DNA of 38,438 nucleotides, from NCBI GenBank assembly GCA_022841505.1, contig JALHRK010000017.1, positions 1-38,438 on the forward strand, given 5' to 3'. Position numbers and translations under genes: made by a program. The notes under the pieces are model-generated. The model ran no database searches. It was not told where the DNA came from and was given only the letters and a program-made list of their open reading frames with translations. Below, piece by piece: positions 2,381 to 9,524 of the stretch (the first letter of the stretch is position 1; each line of letters begins with the position of its first letter). The stretch is from Saprospiraceae bacterium (GTDB lineage: Bacteria > Bacteroidota > Bacteroidia > Chitinophagales > Saprospiraceae).

Positions 2381-3211
2381 TTATTTCCAACTCAGCCGAT
2401 CAATCATCATCCGCACTTCCCCTTTCTGGAGCGTGGTTGCTGCTTCCGTCTGCCGAATCAATTGGTTGCTGTCTTTTCCGGGATGGACTTTTTTGAAATA
2501 ATCGTTAAACCAGGGCGCTAAGTATTCCTTCATATCGGTGTACACGTCAATCGTTGCCACATGGTAAGGCATTTCGGCGCCGAATGGGAACTCCATATCA
2601 AAGAGGATCCAGGCTTTCATGTTCCCGTCCTTTATTCTTGCTGCGTGCACAGGCCTCCAGATGTCTTTTTCCACTTTTATGTGGTCGGCGCGGGTAGCTC
2701 CTGCCGGGGAAGAGAAATAATTAAAAACCACAATTTTGCCTTTTTGCCAATCGTCCGAAAAAACGCCGTCCGCTTTAGACCAGACCTCTTCTTTCACTAA
2801 AGTTCGGATTTGGTCGGTGCGTTTAACGAGGTCAATTTCTTCCTTCGTCAGCAGAGATTGCCAGTTACTGCCCGAGGTCCCTTCGTAATAGCGGGCGAGT
2901 TGGTCACTTCCTCTTAATACGTTACTTGCCACGTAATTGTACTCACAGTTGGCGCCGTAAGGCGATGCGATCCTTGCCAGGCCCCAATCGTACAAATTCC
3001 CTGCCTTTTGTGAAGCAGCGTGGAGCTTTTTGAAAGCTTGTTCCATTTTCAGGTATTCGGCTTCTTTGTCGGGCGCTACTTTCATGTAGGCATAAACGAT
3101 GTACAGGGTGGTATCTGCGCTTTGAGCGCCGGCGTTGGTGGAAAGCAGGAAGCAAAATCCTGCCAGGGCCAGGGCTTTGATCGCCCGGCCCAATAAATTG
3201 GTGTTGTTCAT
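2381..3211 (-). CDS. Secreted protein of unknown function, NIPSNAP/ABM-like halves
   Basis: A 276-residue protein with a Sec signal peptide (about residues 1-29, ending STNAGAQ). The mature chain appears to hold two similar alpha/beta halves: TLYIVYAYMKVAPDKEAEYL near residue 35 and KIVVFNYFSSPAG...DHIKVEKDIWRPVHAARI near residue 165. Both look like the strand-helix pattern of ferredoxin-fold dimeric barrels (NIPSNAP, ABM, EthD), but no diagnostic motif was seen, so this is inference. The C-terminus ends in a basic WK without a sorting domain. It follows the gene at 3231-3839 with a 19-base gap and is followed by a strong terminator, so the two form an operon. The operon has the same regulatory dyad as the neighbouring response regulator gene. 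Confidence 0.7.
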   Translation of the reverse strand: MNNTNLLGRAIKALALAGFCFLLSTNAGAQSADTTLYIVYAYMKVAPDKEAEYLKMEQAFKKLHAASQKAGNLYDWGLARIASPYGANCEYNYVASNVLRGSDQLARYYEGTSGSNWQSLLTKEEIDLVKRTDQIRTLVKEEVWSKADGVFSDDWQKGKIVVFNYFSSPAGATRADHIKVEKDIWRPVHAARIKDGNMKAWILFDMEFPFGAEMPYHVATIDVYTDMKEYLAPWFNDYFKKVHPGKDSNQLIRQTEAATTLQKGEVRMMIDRLSWK

Positions 3212-3230: not shown

Positions 3231-3839
3231 TTAGAAAGTGGTATTCACCGAAAAATTAACGAAAGGCTTATTCCGCTTGCCGGCAATCTTTGCCAGGCGC
3301 TTCATTTTGTAGTACATTATTTGGGCAACTCCCACTAAGTAATCTTTGCGCGGGCCGGTGAAAATGAAGGTCTGCTTGTGGTTCAGGAAATCGCCGTGCA
3401 GTAGGCGGCACTTTGGCGTGGCGCTGTACAAGGCAGCCAACCGAACAGAATTGGTGCCGAAGATCAACTGCGGCGTGCCGTACGCCCACAAAGCATAAGC
3501 CACGCACAACCAGACGAAAAAATTGAGCCGGGATTTCTTGCGAATATCCGGGGTCATCCAGAAACAGCACATTTCGGTGTGTGCAGCTGCGTTTTGCACC
3601 TGTTGATACAGGGCATCGCGGTGTGCGTCTCCTGCAAAAACCTCCAGGGTGCGCAGGGTTGTTCCAGCGCCGAGGATGAATCCGCCGACCATTTTTTCCT
3701 GATAATAAATGGCAAAAACCTGGTTGGTTTCGTAGTAGTCGCGGTTCACGTTGAAGCCGGAACACTGAAAATAACTGCTTGCAAAAACATCAATTTCAGC
3801 GGAGTTTTGGATTTGTGTGAATTTTGGAAAGTGTAGCAT
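3231..3839 (-). CDS. Unknown protein, possibly acyltransferase (GNAT)-like
   Basis: A 202-residue cytosolic protein. The frame is open upstream to 3917, but the start was placed at the ATG giving MLHFPKFTQIQ because the dyad and -7 box (3883-3930) lie upstream of it and the longer N-terminus is low in plausible structure. The segment NQVFAIYYQEKMVGGFILG (about 40-58) looks like the strand turn of GNAT acyltransferases, where VxAiyxxxkivGG is common, and RLNFFVWLCVAYALWAYGTPQLIFGTNS resembles the helix and strand after the acyl-CoA loop. The CoA-binding Q/RxxGxG/A loop was not found, so activity is uncertain. First gene of an operon with the secreted protein at 2381-3211; probably controlled by the response regulator encoded 1.3 kb upstream. 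Function unknown. Confidence 0.65.
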   Translation of the reverse strand: MLHFPKFTQIQNSAEIDVFASSYFQCSGFNVNRDYYETNQVFAIYYQEKMVGGFILGAGTTLRTLEVFAGDAHRDALYQQVQNAAAHTEMCCFWMTPDIRKKSRLNFFVWLCVAYALWAYGTPQLIFGTNSVRLAALYSATPKCRLLHGDFLNHKQTFIFTGPRKDYLVGVAQIMYYKMKRLAKIAGKRNKPFVNFSVNTTF

Positions 3840-3882
3840 GATCTCGTTATTTTGTAAGGATTTAATTTTCTTATTGACCTTA

Positions 3883-3930
3883 CAAAGGTGCGATGGGCAG
3901 GGCAGCAGCGCATCCACATGTTGATGTGGA
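3883..3930 (-). promoter_or_regulatory. Operator-promoter shared with the response regulator gene
   Basis: On the minus strand the dyad TCCACATCAACATGTGG (3914-3930) is followed after exactly 23 bases by CACCTTTG (3883-3890), one mismatch from the TAnnTTTG -7 element. The same 17-mer and the same 23-base spacing occur at 5902-5949 before the response regulator gene. No TTG is present at -33; the dyad would be centred near -42, the classical position of an activator touching RNA polymerase. Transcription would start about 40 bases before the ATG at 3839. Confidence 0.75.
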
Positions 3931-3993
3931 AGGGGTGTGGGAGTTCGGGCTGGAGCCCAAATAATAAAATACGCGAGGCGGAACTTCGACTTA

Positions 3994-4038
3994 CTTCGAC
4001 TTCGCTCAGTACAAGTCGCTCAGTACAAGTCGCTCAGT
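3994..4038. repeat. GACTTCGCTCA repeat with 14-bp tandem copies
   Basis: CTTCGACTTCGCTCAGT (3994-4010) merges into a 14-bp tandem repeat, TCGCTCAGTACAAG at 4002-4015 and 4016-4029 and a partial third copy to 4038. The same 17-mer occurs inverted at 20821-20837, so this is a dispersed intergenic element. The rest of the interval 3931-4113 shows no gene. Confidence 0.7.
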
Positions 4039-4113
4039 TACCGTCGTCGCGCCAGCAAGGGATTAATAAATTTAAGGCGGCCTAAAGACCGCGAAACGAA
4101 GCACGCCTTACCC

Positions 4114-5331
4114 TTAGGCAAATCGTTGAATCTGAACGACAATCAGGAAGCCATTGGAAGTGTCTATATGGAAAGCAGCACCAATCTGCTCAGCCCGCAT
4201 ACGCATGTTGGATAAGCCCAGCCCCGTAGTTTTGTAGTCTTTTTGCTTTACTTCACCGTTGTCGTGGATGCTCATTTCTAAGCCGTTGCTGCCAAACTTC
4301 TGGAGTTTAACGGCGACCTTATTGGCATTGGAATGTTTGGCAATATTGGTCAGTGCTTCTTTGTAGATGAGGTATAGATTCTGCCGGATATGGGCGGGCA
4401 TATTTTTTGTCAAAGCCAATTGGTCAATTTGCAAATCAAACGCGATGTCTTTGGGCGTGAGGGTTTCTTCGGCGTGCTCGCGCATGCGGTCGAGCAGGTT
4501 TTCGAGCTTGTCCTTGCGGGCGTCAATTGCCCAAACGGTGTCCCGCATGTGCGACATGGCGGTGCGGCTCAACTCGCTGATGCGTTTGAGCTTGGGCTTG
4601 TTTTTTTCCTCAGCGTTCAATTCCAGGATTTCTGATTGCATGGCCAATCCTGAAAGAATTGTGCCCACATCGTCGTGCAGGTCGCTGGAAATTTTCACCC
4701 GCATGCGCTCGATTTTCAAAACCTGTTGCAAACGATACCTGAAAACGCCATAGACGATCCCTGAAATGGCCAGCGCGCAAAGTGCATAAAACCACCCCGT
4801 GCGCCACCAGGGCGGCGGCAGGTAAAAGGATAATTTTCTGGCATCTGCTTCCGGCATCCAGACGCCGTCGGCATTGGTGGCCAGCAACTCCAGGGTATAC
4901 GCGCCCGGCTGCAATTTGGAAAACCGGACAAACCCCGGGTTTTTCGATTCAATCCATGCCGTATCCTGCCCGACCAACCGGTAACGGAACCGGATGGATT
5001 CGGGGTCGTTGTATTCCAGCGCCAGAAAATTAAAGGAAAGGGTATTCTGGTGATAATGGAGCATAGGCAATTGATCCATCCAGCGCACATTTTCCGGGGT
5101 AGGATAATGGACATCGTTGATGTTGATGTTTTCAAAAACAATGGGTGGAAAAGTCGCCTGGTTTTTAATGGAATCCGGGTGAAAAACATTCAACCCATTG
5201 GGGCCGCCCAGCCAAATTTCGCCATTGGAAGCCCGCAGCCAGGCCCGCTGATTAAATTCCTGCCCCTGCAAACCATCCGCTTGCGAAAACCGGTGCCCTT
5301 GCTGTTCACTTCCAATGCCCTGTAGATCCGC
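4114..5331 (-). pseudogene. Sensor histidine kinase missing its propeller sensor
   Basis: The back half of a two-component kinase of the Reg_prop/Y_Y_Y type, whose full members are about 1,000 residues with two periplasmic beta-propellers. What remains, in order: the tail of the last propeller blade (FSQADGLQGQEFNQRAW, GEIWLGGPNGLNVFHP), a Y_Y_Y domain ending LELLATNADGVWMPE, one membrane helix (TGWFYALCALAISGIVYGVF), a HisKA_3 domain with the phospho-acceptor SSDLHDDVGTILS, and an ATPase domain with N box, HDNG and GLGLSNMRMRAEQIG. The reading frame opens at 5331 inside the response regulator gene, in another frame, and has no ATG before residue 65 of the remnant; the first usable start is a TTG at 5271. 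About 600-700 N-terminal residues are therefore absent. A deletion or a misassembly joined it to the regulator. The catalytic core is intact and could still act if translated by coupling. Confidence 0.8.
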
Positions 5332-5897
5332 TTAATATAGTCCCGAACGGTGTCTAAGAAAATATTGAGTTTGTCTGCGATCATTTTGTAACTCAGCCCG
5401 TCCACAATGCCCTGCACAATTTCTTTTTGCCGGGGCGATAATACTTCGCCTTCCCGTTGGGCTTTGGGGTTAAAATGCAGTGCGATTTTTCTGGCGATGG
5501 TGGGGGACATGTAGGAACCGCCGCGGAAAACGGTGAAAATCGCGTCGCGGATGGTCACCAGCGATGTTCGTTTGGTGATGTAGGAACAGGCGCCTGCACA
5601 GAGGGCATCAAAAATTTTATCGTCTTCCTCAAAGGTGGTCAACATCACAATATCGGTGTCCGGGTATTTCTGACGGATGTGGTAAATGCCCTGGATACCC
5701 GAAATTCCGGGCAGCCCAATATCGAGCAACAACACGTTGATGGCCGGGCGGGCACTGTCCTTAACGGCAGCCAGAAACTCCTCCATGCTTTTGGAGATGA
5801 GGGTAATTTCAAAAGCCGGGCTTTCCCCCAGAAACTGTTCCAGGCTTTCCCGAATGACCGGGTCGTCTTCAACGATGGCGATTTTGATGTTTTCCAT
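5190..5897 (-). CDS. NarL/FixJ-family response regulator with aberrant C-terminal tail
   Basis: A 235-residue regulator. Residues 1-125 are a receiver domain: acidic pocket VEDD, phospho-acceptor Asp59 in LLLDIGLPG, Thr87/88 in MLTTFEE and Lys109 in YITKR. Residues 150-200 are a LuxR-type helix-turn-helix (LSPRQKEIVQGIVDGLSYKM, then DTVRDYIKRIYRALEVNSK). The start MENIKIAIVEDD is canonical; the upstream extension to 5960 is rejected because it runs through the promoter. After Lys200 the protein continues for about 35 residues that are an out-of-frame reading of the kinase gene (residues corresponding to FSQADGLQGQEF in the kinase frame), ending at 5190. The native end is thus lost, although the DNA-binding helices are complete. 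It overlaps the kinase remnant by 140 bases and probably binds the dyads at 5933-5949 and 3914-3930. Confidence 0.85.
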   Translation of the reverse strand: MENIKIAIVEDDPVIRESLEQFLGESPAFEITLISKSMEEFLAAVKDSARPAINVLLLDIGLPGISGIQGIYHIRQKYPDTDIVMLTTFEEDDKIFDALCAGACSYITKRTSLVTIRDAIFTVFRGGSYMSPTIARKIALHFNPKAQREGEVLSPRQKEIVQGIVDGLSYKMIADKLNIFLDTVRDYIKRIYRALEVNSKGTGFRKRMVCRGRNLISGPGCGLPMAKFGWAAPMG

Positions 5898-5901
5898 GCA
5901 A

Positions 5902-5949
5902 CAAAGGTAACTGGTGTTGGATGGGAAAACGACCACATGTTGATGTGGA
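5902..5949 (-). promoter_or_regulatory. Operator-promoter of the response regulator gene
   Basis: On the minus strand the dyad TCCACATCAACATGTGG (5933-5949) is followed by 23 bases and TACCTTTG (5902-5909), a perfect TAnnTTTG -7 element. It matches the site at 3883-3930 in motif and spacing. The -7 box ends only four bases before the ATG at 5897, so the transcript would be leaderless or nearly so. The dyad also lies about 50 bases upstream of the divergent TonB receptor start at 5999 and could influence it. Confidence 0.75.
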
Positions 5950-5998
5950 GGCGCACACACATTGCAACAAAATCCTATCTTGCCTGCAAAAAATTGGT

Positions 5999-8437
5999 AT
6001 GAAAATAACCTGCGGCCCGATATTCCTCTTTTTGCTTTGGATGACCCCGCTCCTGCTCCCGGCTCAGGAAACGCCCCGCTTGCTGAAGAACCGCGAGGTC
6101 AATTTTCGGGGTGTCGTGAAGTCTAAAGACGAAAAACAGCCGCTCACCGGCGCCAATGTGCTCGTTCGCGAAACCAAAGAAGGCGCTTACACCGACATCA
6201 ACGGTTTTTTTAGTTTTCGCCTGCCGCAAGGCAATTATACCTTCGTCGTCAGCTACATCGGGTATGAAAGCGCGAAATTTCAATTATCACTGGTCAAAGA
6301 CACCGTGCAATTGCTTTACCTGGAGCCGTTAACCAATTTTCTGGAAGAAATTGAAGTCAGCGGAGCGGCGCAGGACCGCAATATTGCGACGCCCAACCTT
6401 GGCGCTGCGCGGCTTAGTTCCACGACCATCAAAGCACTGCCGTCCCTGTTGGGCGAAGCCGACGTACTCAAGGGATTGCAATTGCTGCCCGGAGTCACCT
6501 CGGTTGGAGAAGGGGCAACCGGCCTGAATGTACGCGGGGGCAATATTGACCAGAACCTCATCCTGATGGACGATATTCCTGTGTTTTATTCCAGCCACCT
6601 GCTTGGTTTTTTTTCCGTTTTTAACCCGGATGTCTTGCGCGACGTCACGTTTTACCGGGGCGGCATTCCGGCGGTTTATGGCGGCAGAACGGCTTCGGTA
6701 CTGGATATCCGGCTGAGAGACCCGGCAATGGACAAATGGCAGTACCAGGGCGGCATCGGATTGATTTCCAGTCGCTTTATGGCAGAAGGGCCGGTGGTGC
6801 CGGACAAACTTTCTGTGTTCGTGGCGGCACGAGGTTCCGCACCCAACTATATTTTCAAAGTTTTGCCGGATCCGTCACTCCGGGAGATTGACGCCAATTT
6901 TTACGAATTCACGACCAAACTCCGCTACCGCTTCAGCGATTACGACCAATTGGCGTTCACAGCGTTTTTCAGCGAAGACGCCTTTCGCATCCCCGGCGAT
7001 TCGCTCACCGCGCTGGAAGTCAACGCCACCTCTACCCTGTTCACCTGGCGCAATTTGGGTGCGAGCGGCCGGTGGAATCATTTTTTTAACGACGAATTGT
7101 CCTTCCAGGTGGCCGGCGCTGTGGGGGCCTACCAACCCGGTTTTTCCATCCCGGACGAAGCCTACGCAGCTAAATTTACTTCCGGCGTAGAGCAGCGCTA
7201 TGTGAAAGCGAGCCTGAAACAGTTCAATGCGAAACACAATGCGGAACTGGGTGTCATGATCTCCGGCTACCGCATCCAACCCGGCGATTTACAGCCCGAT
7301 TCGGATATTTCAGCCATCAATGCCAAGATCCTGCCACCGGAACGCTCAACTGAAGCGGCGGCTTTTGTCAACGACGAATGGACCATTTCCAACAACATCA
7401 GCGTCATGGCCGGGCTGCGCTATTCTTGGTACAGCTTCAACGGCCCGGGGCGCGTGTTTCAATACGAGCCGGGGGTACCCCGCGAGTTATCGGGCATCAG
7501 CGATACGGTTTTTTACAACAAAGGCGACCGGATCAGCACGTACAGCGGATTTGAACCCCGCTTAGCCATCAAAATCAGCACCGGTCCTTCCAGCTCGGTC
7601 AAATTCGGCTATAACCGCGTGATTCAATACCTGCAATTGGTGTCGAATACCACCTCTGCGCTACCCACAGATCGCTGGAAAAGCAGCGACCCCTACACCA
7701 AGCCCCAAATTGCCGACCAGGTATCGGCGGGCATTTTTCGGAATTTTAAAAACAACGAATACGAAGCAGGGGTGGAGGGCTATTATAAATTGGTGGAAAA
7801 CATGCCCGACTACCGCAGCGGCGTGAGCCTGTTGTTACTGGAAGCGCCCGAAACGGCTATTTTGCAGGGCAAAGGCCGGGCTTACGGCGTCGAATTATTG
7901 GTGCGCAAAACCAAAGGCCGGCTCACCGGATGGCTCAGCTATACGTGGTCAAATACGCAATTGCGCATCGAAAGTCCGTATGAAGAAGACCAGGCTTTCA
8001 GCGGCAAATATTATCCCGCGAATTTTGACCGCCCGCATGTTGGCAATTTTTCGGCGACTTACCGGCAGAACCGGCGCGTCACTTTTTCAGCCAATTTTAC
8101 CTTCAGCGCAGGCCGCCCGGTAACGTTTCCGGAAAGCAAATATACGGTGGACGGGGTCTTCATTCCCAATTACATCAACCGCAACGAAGACCGAACGCCG
8201 TCGTATCACCGACTCGATCTGGGGATGAAAATTGATCCGGATCCGCGCAATACCAAACCCTGGAAAAGCTACTGGAGCTTCTCCCTTTACAATGTTTATG
8301 CACGCCGTAATCCGTATTCCCTGTTTTTTAGAACGAAAAACAACACGGCCTACCGGGCGCTGAACAAGGTGGAAGCTTACCGTTTAGCTACCATTGGCAC
8401 CATCGTGCCGGCAATTACCTACGAATTCAAATTTTAA
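5999..8437 (+). CDS. TonB-dependent outer membrane receptor
   Basis: An 812-residue outer membrane receptor. The start was set at the ATG giving MKITCGPIFLFLL...LPAQ, a clean signal peptide; the frame is open upstream to 5921, but that part crosses the regulatory dyad. Residues about 37-115 form a carboxypeptidase-regulatory-like domain (GVVKSKDEKQPLTGANVLV, then FSFRLPQGNYTFVVSYIGY). The plug follows, with LPSLLGEADVLKGLQLLPG, GLNVRGGNIDQNLILMDDI and GGRTASVLDIRL. The remainder is the beta-barrel, ending in the aromatic YEFKF expected for insertion into the outer membrane. The next gene, 19 bases downstream, encodes a DUF4249 lipoprotein. This receptor type and DUF4249 proteins are regularly found together in Bacteroidota, where they are thought to take up a still undefined ligand. 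No TonB box was recognised. Confidence 0.9.
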   Translation: MKITCGPIFLFLLWMTPLLLPAQETPRLLKNREVNFRGVVKSKDEKQPLTGANVLVRETKEGAYTDINGFFSFRLPQGNYTFVVSYIGYESAKFQLSLVKDTVQLLYLEPLTNFLEEIEVSGAAQDRNIATPNLGAARLSSTTIKALPSLLGEADVLKGLQLLPGVTSVGEGATGLNVRGGNIDQNLILMDDIPVFYSSHLLGFFSVFNPDVLRDVTFYRGGIPAVYGGRTASVLDIRLRDPAMDKWQYQGGIGLISSRFMAEGPVVPDKLSVFVAARGSAPNYIFKVLPDPSLREIDANFYEFTTKLRYRFSDYDQLAFTAFFSEDAFRIPGDSLTALEVNATSTLFTWRNLGASGRWNHFFNDELSFQVAGAVGAYQPGFSIPDEAYAAKFTSGVEQRYVKASLKQFNAKHNAELGVMISGYRIQPGDLQPDSDISAINAKILPPERSTEAAAFVNDEWTISNNISVMAGLRYSWYSFNGPGRVFQYEPGVPRELSGISDTVFYNKGDRISTYSGFEPRLAIKISTGPSSSVKFGYNRVIQYLQLVSNTTSALPTDRWKSSDPYTKPQIADQVSAGIFRNFKNNEYEAGVEGYYKLVENMPDYRSGVSLLLLEAPETAILQGKGRAYGVELLVRKTKGRLTGWLSYTWSNTQLRIESPYEEDQAFSGKYYPANFDRPHVGNFSATYRQNRRVTFSANFTFSAGRPVTFPESKYTVDGVFIPNYINRNEDRTPSYHRLDLGMKIDPDPRNTKPWKSYWSFSLYNVYARRNPYSLFFRTKNNTAYRALNKVEAYRLATIGTIVPAITYEFKF

Positions 8438-8456
8438 TTGAAAAAAGCCAAAATTC

Positions 8457-9524
8457 ATGAAATATACTTGTGTTCTTCTTCTGACAATCGCCCTTTTTGC
8501 CGGCCTGACTGCTTGCATAGACCAGATAGATACCGGTACAGAAGACATCGTGCCAAAATTAGTGGTGGACGGCCAGATTACCAACCTGCCAGGCCCTTAC
8601 CGCGTGAAACTTGGGCAAAGCGAACCTTACGACAATGCTTCCATAACCCGTGCCGTCGCCAATGCAACCGTATACGTGGTGGACGACCTGGGCAACCGGT
8701 ACGACCTCACCGAAGGAACACGGGGAACTTACCTCACGGACTCGCTCAGTTTTCAGGGCGAACCTGGCCGGACTTACACCCTGCACATTCGGACGGATAC
8801 AGGAAAAGAATACCAGTCGCAGCCCCAGTTGCTGCAGGATTCCCCGCCCATTGACACCATTTTTAGCCGATATGTGGAAGAAATTACCGCCAATGGCGTT
8901 ACCAAAGACTATTTTGAAGTTTATTTAAAATCGCAGGATGTTGCGGGGGAAAAGAACTTCTATCGCTGGAAATGGACACATTATGAGTCGCTGACCTATT
9001 GCAAGCAGACATTTGCCCCCGATACTGAAAACGGCGTCAATTACCGCCTTTACAGTTTTTGTTGTGAACCTTGCTGGAGAATTGAGCGCTGCAACAACTG
9101 CATTGACTTAGCCAACGACCAGTACACCGATGGCAATGTGCTCGAACGCCTGATCACGACGATTCCCTACGACTCAAAAGATGATTATTTTATGGTCATC
9201 GAGCAGTACGCCCTGTCGGAAAAAGCTTACCGGTTCTGGAACAGCGTGGTAAGCCAAACGAACAATACCGGTGGGATTTTTGACAACCCGCCTGCTTCTA
9301 TCCCGGGAAATATTTCTAATGTAAACGACCCGCAAGAACTGGTACTCGGCCTTTTTACAGCGTCCGGGGTCTCCCGGAAAAGCGTATATTTGAAACGCGA
9401 TTACGTGCCGAAACCACCGCCGCCGGACAACAGCGGAGTCGGCGTTCAGATTCTGCTCTCGCCTTTGTGCGAGCCATGCCGGGAAGGGATTGTGCGAACG
9501 GGGGTTAAGCCACCGGGATGGTAA
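8457..9524 (+). CDS. DUF4249 lipoprotein
   Basis: A 355-residue lipoprotein with lipobox LTAC (Cys20) after the signal MKYTCVLLLTIALFAG. The N-terminal part resembles a beta-sandwich (KLVVDGQITNLPGPYRVKL, ANATVYVVDDLGNRYDL, GRTYTLHIRTDTGKEY), as in DUF4249 proteins. The middle holds a cysteine-rich block, SFCCEPCWRIERCNNCIDLA, around residues 201-220, and two further cysteines near the C-terminus (LCEPCREG); such clustered cysteines in an exported protein suggest disulfides or metal binding. It lies 19 bases after the TonB receptor stop and is almost certainly in the same operon, acting as its surface-side or periplasmic partner. The ligand is unknown. Confidence 0.85.
   Translation: MKYTCVLLLTIALFAGLTACIDQIDTGTEDIVPKLVVDGQITNLPGPYRVKLGQSEPYDNASITRAVANATVYVVDDLGNRYDLTEGTRGTYLTDSLSFQGEPGRTYTLHIRTDTGKEYQSQPQLLQDSPPIDTIFSRYVEEITANGVTKDYFEVYLKSQDVAGEKNFYRWKWTHYESLTYCKQTFAPDTENGVNYRLYSFCCEPCWRIERCNNCIDLANDQYTDGNVLERLITTIPYDSKDDYFMVIEQYALSEKAYRFWNSVVSQTNNTGGIFDNPPASIPGNISNVNDPQELVLGLFTASGVSRKSVYLKRDYVPKPPPPDNSGVGVQILLSPLCEPCREGIVRTGVKPPGW

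Follow-up and report, generated by a model that had tools for sequence, protein, structure and literature searches.

The dyad CCACAT-N4-ATGTGG, which lies at the same distance from the -7 box of two promoters in a Saprospiraceae genome, is very probably the operator of a NarL-type response regulator and its orthologues, and the regulator would activate both promoters, its own and that of an operon encoding an acyltransferase-like protein and a secreted protein. In the genome studied here, this circuit may be partly or wholly lost. The window, that is, the whole stretch of DNA that was analysed, has 38,438 nt (assembly GCA_022841505.1, contig JALHRK010000017.1, positions 1 to 38,438).

The same dyad stands before two promoters in the window

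Both sites are on the minus strand. Dyad 1 (TCCACATCAACATGTGG, 3914..3930) precedes the operon of the acyltransferase-like and secreted-protein genes and is 23 nt from the -7 box CACCTTTG (3883..3890); it is conserved in the congener G001 and in two further genomes, G019 and G052. Dyad 2, the same 17-mer TCCACATCAACATGTGG (5933..5949), precedes the NarL-type response regulator gene and is 23 nt from the -7 box TACCTTTG (5902..5909), which lies 4 nt before the regulator ATG. The first-pass annotation of this sequence had reported two copies of the 17-mer, with exactly 23 nt of unrelated sequence between each of them and its YACCTTTG box; we confirmed both sites, and the two spacers are identical at 7 of 23 positions. 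It had also suggested a genome search for the 17-mer with its spacing, and this search recovered two exact copies only in the whole 7.5 Mb genome, each 23 nt from a box, with 12 more places at 3 mismatches. The core CCACAT-N4-ATGTGG likewise has two copies in the genome, both in the window. When the window was shuffled and 3 mismatches were allowed, 2 matches were reached in 1 of 100 shuffles.

The presence of only two copies in the genome would suit a repeat that arose by chance or two copies of a mobile sequence. The spacers of such a copy would hardly be unrelated, as they are here, and other genera have kept both sites at the orthologous positions. Conservation refutes this explanation, which we regard as extremely improbable.

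The dyad lies at a nearly fixed distance from the -7 box

The excerpt consulted of a study on F. johnsoniae promoters places the -7 element from T at -12 to G at -5, with the consensus TAnnTTTG; probable promoters start 4 or 5 nt past this element, and 87% of the leaders so predicted are longer than 10 nt (PMC6847099). Against this Bacteroidota -7 element, as given in that excerpt, TACCTTTG is an exact match and CACCTTTG is one base off. On the same numbering, with the start inferred from the box, the 16-bp dyad extends from -51 to -36 and has its centre at about -43.5; were the start 5 nt past the box, this would move upstream by one base. The centre had earlier been put near -42; that figure needs shifting on the F. 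johnsoniae numbering.

The triplet right after the dyad was compared among the 86 family sites with a spacing of 23 nt, and was TTG in 22 and TTT in 15 (37 of 86 together). In the window it is ATG and TCG, and a -33 TTG or TTTG was found at neither site. The claim that neither promoter has a -33 TTG is therefore literally right, but it overlooked that a degenerate -33-like element abuts the dyad and that the class often has TTG or TTT there. By its position on the numbering of that excerpt, the triplet is the predicted -33 element, degenerate in the window. The dyad site is not fully symmetrical, because its centre reads CAAN along the direction of transcription in 41 of the 86 sites.

In front of the regulator gene, the distance from box to ATG is 4 nt in 19 of the 24 dyad-bearing close regulator orthologues, and the regulator starts 4 nt past the box in 15 of the 18 regulator sites in the count of downstream genes described below. 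Therefore, on the start rule of the F. johnsoniae excerpt, a leaderless mRNA beginning at AUG is predicted for the regulator.

That the regulator activates rather than represses is something that we infer from the dyad position alone. A regulator that binds the dyad could instead block the -33 region, with negative autoregulation as the outcome: the dyad lies directly next to the -33 triplet, which is still TTG or TTT in 37 of 86 sites, so that basal promoters may need no help. The near-fixed spacing (86 of 110 matches at 23 nt) fits contact with the polymerase better than blocking, and both sites in the window have a degenerate triplet. Taken together, these points make repression unlikely, and we retain activation as the preferred reading.

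An inverted repeat TTTGTAAGG-N18-CCTTACAAA (3851..3886, minus strand) overlaps the -7 box and the leader of the acyltransferase-like gene, and an exact inverted repeat of this kind is present in 8 of 14 acyltransferase-like promoters. We considered an RNA hairpin, but a start 4-5 nt past the box, as in the F. johnsoniae excerpt, would leave most of the 5' arm untranscribed.

Distribution of the dyad across the family

We searched 398 family genomes for the exact dyad CCACAT-N4-ATGTGG followed by a YANNTTTG box at 8-38 nt. There were 110 matches, which came from 55 genomes and represent 30 of the 112 genera, with a spacing of 23 nt in 86 matches and 22 nt in 8; the reversed-pattern control gave 3 matches in the same 398 genomes. 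In this search, as in those for the arms TCACAT and CCCCAT, one dyad may count once per side. A class-wide draw of 227 genomes had no match in any of the 224 outside the family and none in the other two family members, so that the window's own genome alone matched.

The dyad and its spacing are kept before the orthologous 202-aa acyltransferase-like gene in the congener G001 and before orthologues of this gene in G019 and G052, which belong to two further genera. In G019 the dyad is also found before the orthologous regulator at the same locus; in G052 the regulator dyad is on another contig, with the box GAACTTTG. The 19 loci of the 202-aa family, 14 of them labelled Saprospiraceae, include one from an isolate, Lewinella cohaerens DSM 23179. 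The initial proposal of a private regulon holds for the window's genome, which has two sites, but not beyond it, because the motif occurs in 30 of 112 family genera and in several arm sequences. Rather than belonging to this genome alone, the dyad defines a class of promoters that some genera of a single bacterial family share. The original observation is correct, and stronger than a view of a single genome could show.

Genes downstream of the dyad and the linked regulator

To the motif, its spacing and its conservation, computation adds an association with particular genes. Downstream genes were counted for spacings 22 and 23 only (94 of the 110 places), taking the longest ORF per site. The gene was a regulator orthologue at 18 sites, acyltransferase-like at 14, the secreted 276-aa gene at 9 and another gene at 43, and the remaining 10 of the 94 had no ORF of at least 60 aa starting within 300 nt, some of them lying at contig ends. 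At one site (G399:C371) the longest-ORF rule had hidden an intact acyltransferase-like ORF (L197), which raises 14 to 15 when corrected by hand.

Starting from the regulators instead, we examined a sample of 95 with a relaxed box, outside which there are at least 10 further matches. The dyad was found in 24 of the 29 regulators at least 61% identical to that of the window, all with the left arm CCACAT, and in 19 of the other 66; all 95 together gave 43 (form NNNCAT-N4-ATGNNN, 22-24 nt from the relaxed box). Within 140 nt upstream of the regulators, the dyad was present in 42 of 95 in the forward direction and in 1 of 95 as the reverse complement, and single-base shuffles of the regulator upstreams gave a mean of 0.0 dyads over 50 rounds. 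Five of the 29 close orthologues were not scored as having the dyad. By eye, three of these (G052, G162 and G172) have the same layout with a box or an arm outside the search form, and 24 of 29 leaves them out; the other two (G434 and G290) are close orthologues without the dyad layout.

Starting from the acyltransferase-like gene, the exact dyad was found 23 nt from a YAnnTTTG box in 11 of 19 loci and a near dyad in 2, and no dyad was seen in 6 of 19, one of the six being a partial gene match. The 11 loci are records already matched by the pattern search, so that only the search route is independent. Among whole genomes the exact site was enriched where such a regulator occurs: it was present in 23 of 29 genomes holding a regulator at least 61% identical to that of the window (the other 6 lacked it) and in 25 of 369 others, a comparison that ignores kinship.

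The regulator and its putative target are also neighbours in several relatives. The gene order regulator, 247-261-aa gene, kinase, acyltransferase-like gene was found in G019 (L020/L200), G164 (L137) and G237 (L142/L198), where paired locus names denote a single record each. The 247-261-aa gene between regulator and kinase had no Pfam match in the one case tested. In G285 (L145/L199), the second gene of the regulator-kinase-acyltransferase order was not detected. The regulator and the acyltransferase-like gene are divergent in G203 (L165/L206), G256 (L177/L210) and G102 (L178).

The proposal that the regulator activates itself and the operon is thus well supported comparatively, by 18 regulator sites, 14 acyltransferase-like sites and 24 of 29 close orthologues, with activation as such read from position. 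For the intact relatives, activation by the linked regulator appears to be the best explanation. Counting against it are the 43 sites before other genes and the 10 without such an ORF, the 6 genomes that have a close regulator but no exact site, the less sharp spacing of the TCACAT arms described below, and the atypical recognition helix of the window's own regulator. The dyads here and in the genomes without a close orthologue might be read by another, unlinked member of the regulator class, since 25 of 48 site-bearing genomes hold no regulator at least 61% identical to that of the window (21 at 56.5%), and the congener G001 keeps the dyad without a close regulator. Among eight paralogue loci of G000 and G001 that were scanned, a part of all, the helix sequence DTVRDHIKR was present in none of the 5 helices read, and 24 of 29 close orthologues of the linked regulator have the dyad upstream of their own gene. 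We consider an unlinked reader quite unlikely, and take the linked regulator as the probable reader of the dyad.

Sister arms and the recognition helix

Dyads with other arms were sought in 229 family genomes. TCACAT-N4-ATGTGA occurs at 25 places in 13 of the 229, with a less sharp spacing (9 at 23, 4 at 22 and 5 at 33 nt; reversed control 2), and two of these places, in G187, are one dyad. CCCCAT-N4-ATGGGG occurs at 42 places in 31 of the 229, 36 of them at spacing 23 (reversed control 1).

We scored the recognition helix against the dyad in 42 of the 43 dyad-bearing regulators, leaving out the window's own. Regulators with a DTVR-D-H or ETVR-D-H helix had C...G as the outer bases in 28 of 28 cases, and where S or T replaces the helix D the dyad ended in A in 11 of 13. 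The varying helix position presumably aligns with NarL V189. In a tree of the receiver domain only, the helix and dyad traits change 3 times each, giving 2-3 independent pairs. Two of these pairs lie on well-supported branches, too few to reach significance; there the dyad changed the same way in 1.6 on average and the other way in none. The test of helix residue against dyad, corrected for relatedness, was not significant. The consulted excerpt of work on this protein family attributes specificity to residues of helix alpha-9 and the preceding loop (PMC3246441). These sequences offer a lead that changes in the recognition helix may track the operator arms, on few independent branches.

The regulator and kinase genes appear damaged in this genome

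The NarL-type response regulator gene (5190..5897, minus strand) encodes a receiver domain (PF00072, E 7.7e-20) and a GerE/LuxR-type HTH (PF00196, E 8.3e-11), which places it in the NarL/FixJ type. Its recognition helix, unlike that of the orthologues, is not intact and lacks the conserved His: it reads IFLDTVRDYIK for ISxDTVRDHIK, with S changed to F and H to Y. Among the 95 regulators the window copy alone has F...Y at the two helix positions; the others have S, T, G or K...H. It departs from 5 columns that are invariant in the 28 other close orthologues, where the next highest number is 3, and in the receiver-domain tree its end branch is 0.41 against a median of 0.14. From about 5300 downwards its tail is out of frame.

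The histidine kinase, encoded between the two dyad sites, is a remnant (4114..5271, minus strand) with Y_Y_Y, HisKA_3 and HATPase_c domains; it lacks the long sensor part that its relatives have at the N-terminus. The G019 kinase has 1005 aa, with a Reg_prop match ahead of the Y_Y_Y domain, and compared with G019 the regulator/kinase junction looks as if some 2-3 kb were missing. In the congener G001, whose genome is 84% complete, no close regulator was found while the dyad is kept, and a fusion joins the acyltransferase gene to the secreted-protein gene.

Because the helix and C-terminus of the regulator and the sensor of the kinase are damaged, the circuit may be failing in this genome, and decay of the circuit in this genus would be the simplest reading. 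Carried to its end, this means that the window dyads are relics, with regulator and kinase broken and the motif unread in this genome. The two helix substitutions, the five departures from invariant columns, the out-of-frame tail, the beheaded kinase and the long end branch all point that way, as does G001, where no close regulator was found and the two operon genes are fused. Against it, both dyads and their spacings are perfect, the reading frames of both operon genes are open, as is the remainder of the regulator frame, and the junction may be an assembly fault. We hold it possible, though less likely than not, that the dyads are relics.

Products of the operon

The acyltransferase-like gene (3231..3839, minus strand) encodes 202 aa. 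Its AlphaFold model (mean pLDDT 86, pTM 0.79) was compared with known folds and showed a GNAT fold nearest FeeM (Foldseek E 9.9e-7; Z 13.7, rmsd 3.0, 163 aligned) and then LasI (Z 12.8, rmsd 3.4, 166 aligned). Ordinary GNAT acetyltransferases gave Z 11-12, mostly over 131-150 residues, and BCP1/BCCIP gave Z 11.5-12.1. The margin of the FeeM/LasI fold is modest, because BCP1/BCCIP align over 172-173 residues. With that modest margin, the modelled protein belongs to the fold of the FeeM/AHL synthase group.

Sequence alone does not assign the 202-aa protein clearly to a family. With the Pfam FeeM family, 10 of 17 family members scored below E 1, the best at 1.1e-5, and the window copy scored 15.9 bits (E 0.011), short of the gathering cut-off of 27. 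Nothing credible was found in the PDB by sequence or by a 17-member profile, and the window copy had no NCBIfam match. The excerpt consulted on FeeM describes a structure like that of the AHL synthases without sequence similarity (PMC9654057). For the modelled enzyme, a lipid-amide product is plausible, and a role of that product as a signal is possible.

The second gene (2381..3211, minus strand) encodes 276 aa with a signal-peptide-like N-terminus by eye, and orthologues elsewhere have their own dyad promoter. No Pfam, NCBIfam or PDB sequence match was found for this protein, and its fold model was poor (mean pLDDT 65).

Small RNA candidates in sister systems

Ten of the 42 CCCCAT places lie beside a regulator-kinase pair, on the same strand and within about 4 kb downstream of the sister regulator. 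In 7 of the 9 such loci with enough downstream sequence, a conserved 26-nt core (0-3 mismatches) is followed by a terminator-like hairpin, and none of these seven has a same-strand ORF of at least 80 aa starting within 270 nt. The core was absent at two loci (L302 and L313); an eighth locus with it, L316, has no regulator in the stretch examined. In one genus, four CCACAT sites are followed by another conserved, structured stretch, 113-114 nt long, which ends with a terminator-like hairpin and a T-run. Rfam at its gathering thresholds gave no match in 16 loci. GacA, which controls RsmY and RsmZ, is also a NarL-type regulator, and in this respect resembles the sister systems, whose dyad promoters lead into small RNA candidates; the position of its dyad differs from that of the Saprospiraceae dyad.

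Proposed mechanism and comparison with known systems

In the scheme that we propose, the kinase would phosphorylate the NarL-type regulator, which as a dimer would bind the 16 bp of the dyad, from about -51 to -36 on the excerpted F. johnsoniae numbering, and touch RNA polymerase beside a weak -33 element. It would thereby activate its own promoter, giving positive feedback through a predicted leaderless mRNA, and the promoter of the operon of the acyltransferase-like and secreted proteins. In other genera the same promoter geometry would serve more targets, and sister regulators would use other arm sequences. Binding, phosphorylation, activation and start sites are what we infer from the sequences compared.

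One close parallel is the lux box, whose 20-bp repeat has its centre at -42.5 in the excerpts consulted (PMC3376562, PMC4471428). Like LuxR at its class II promoters, the system has a dyad just upstream of the -35/-33 element (here centred at about -43.5 by the inferred start), a GerE-type HTH and a target gene like a GNAT-fold acyl synthase. The dyad here, however, has 16 bp and not 20, and sits in a Bacteroidota -7/-33 promoter; the regulator has a phosphoreceiver as its N-terminal domain, and an autoinducer-binding domain was not found in it. The acyltransferase scores higher against the fold of FeeM than against that of LasI, a difference of no more than about 1 Z unit. It shares with FeeM, an N-acyl amino acid synthase, the best fold match and the weak Pfam match in 10 of 17 members; it differs in that the window copy scores 15.9 against the cut-off of 27 and in that it is apparently under two-component control. 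With the NarL/FixJ family the system has in common the receiver and GerE domains and the partner kinase with HisKA_3. It differs in that the promoter geometry stays the same in many genera of one family while the dyad arms can be exchanged, and in its predicted leaderless, self-activated regulator mRNA.

More speculatively, and with considerable doubt, the enzyme might produce an N-acyl amino acid, or a lipid related to it, which is present outside the cell and sensed by the propeller kinase. This would be a quorum-type positive feedback loop in Saprospiraceae, with a lux-box-like promoter under a two-component system and not a LuxR receptor, and with sister systems that have other arms, some driving small RNAs.

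In the titles and opening parts of abstracts of the open-licence literature, we found no operators of Saprospiraceae response regulators, although CRP/FNR regulators are covered; judging from these, little seems to have been published on the operators of two-component systems in this family. An operator at one fixed distance would make regulons readable directly from genome sequence, and the related regulators with different operator arms form a set for working out a recognition code. The promoter class predicts leaderless, self-activated regulator mRNAs, and it would connect a putative lipid-amide synthase, and in sister systems candidate small RNAs, with a two-component system.

Sequences around the regulator and operon promoters

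The TonB-dependent receptor and DUF4249 gene pair (5921-9524) is divergent from the NarL-type regulator, and dyad 2, the CCACAT dyad (CCACAT-N4-ATGTGG) before the regulator, lies within or next to the upstream stretch that the two sides have in common. On the receptor side, inspection by eye found that the nearest -7-like sequence was TATCTTGC (5977-5984), which is 28 nt from dyad 2 and off consensus. At the other end of the regulator gene (junction at 5190-5300), the end of its frame is joined to the kinase's last propeller part, reflecting either a real deletion or an assembly fault.

At the promoter of the acyltransferase-like gene, we found an inverted repeat, TTTGTAAGG/CCTTACAAA (3851-3886), that overlaps the -7 box. 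The repeat was present at the same place before seven further acyltransferase-like genes, with a loop of 13-19 nt across the genes having it, and is possibly a second operator. The congener G001 has an in-frame fusion at this locus (L019:3173-4081), in which the acyltransferase-like gene continues into the end of the gene for the secreted protein.

Conserved stretches behind the dyads and related dyads

Immediately 3' of the CCACAT dyad promoters of four loci from one genus, a conserved structured stretch of 113-114 nt was found (L122:5883-5996, L123:5883-5996, L130:5154-5267, and L136:3809-3921). Its predicted structure has 32 pairs, three of which show double compensatory changes, and the stretch ends in a terminator-like hairpin; searching Rfam at gathering thresholds gave no matches to this stretch.

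The TCACAT dyads, a sister arm sequence, showed a second preferred spacing to the box: at 5 of 25 places, all within two family genomes (G186 and G228), it was 33 nt, which puts the dyad farther upstream by roughly one turn of the helix. One CCCCAT dyad with a spacing of 23 nt is present in the window's own genome (L311:2889-2935, contig G000:C157) and is followed, 165 nt downstream, by an ORF of 1531 aa whose start resembles a signal peptide; the counterpart of this dyad in the congener is close to a contig end. At eight loci (L303, L305, L306, L307, L308, L309, L310, and L316), candidate small RNAs about 95-140 nt long were observed 3' of the CCCCAT dyads. They share a terminator-like hairpin and the conserved core CACCTATCAACAAGAAGCGTGTTTAC, and a regulator–kinase pair adjoins the candidate at seven of the loci.
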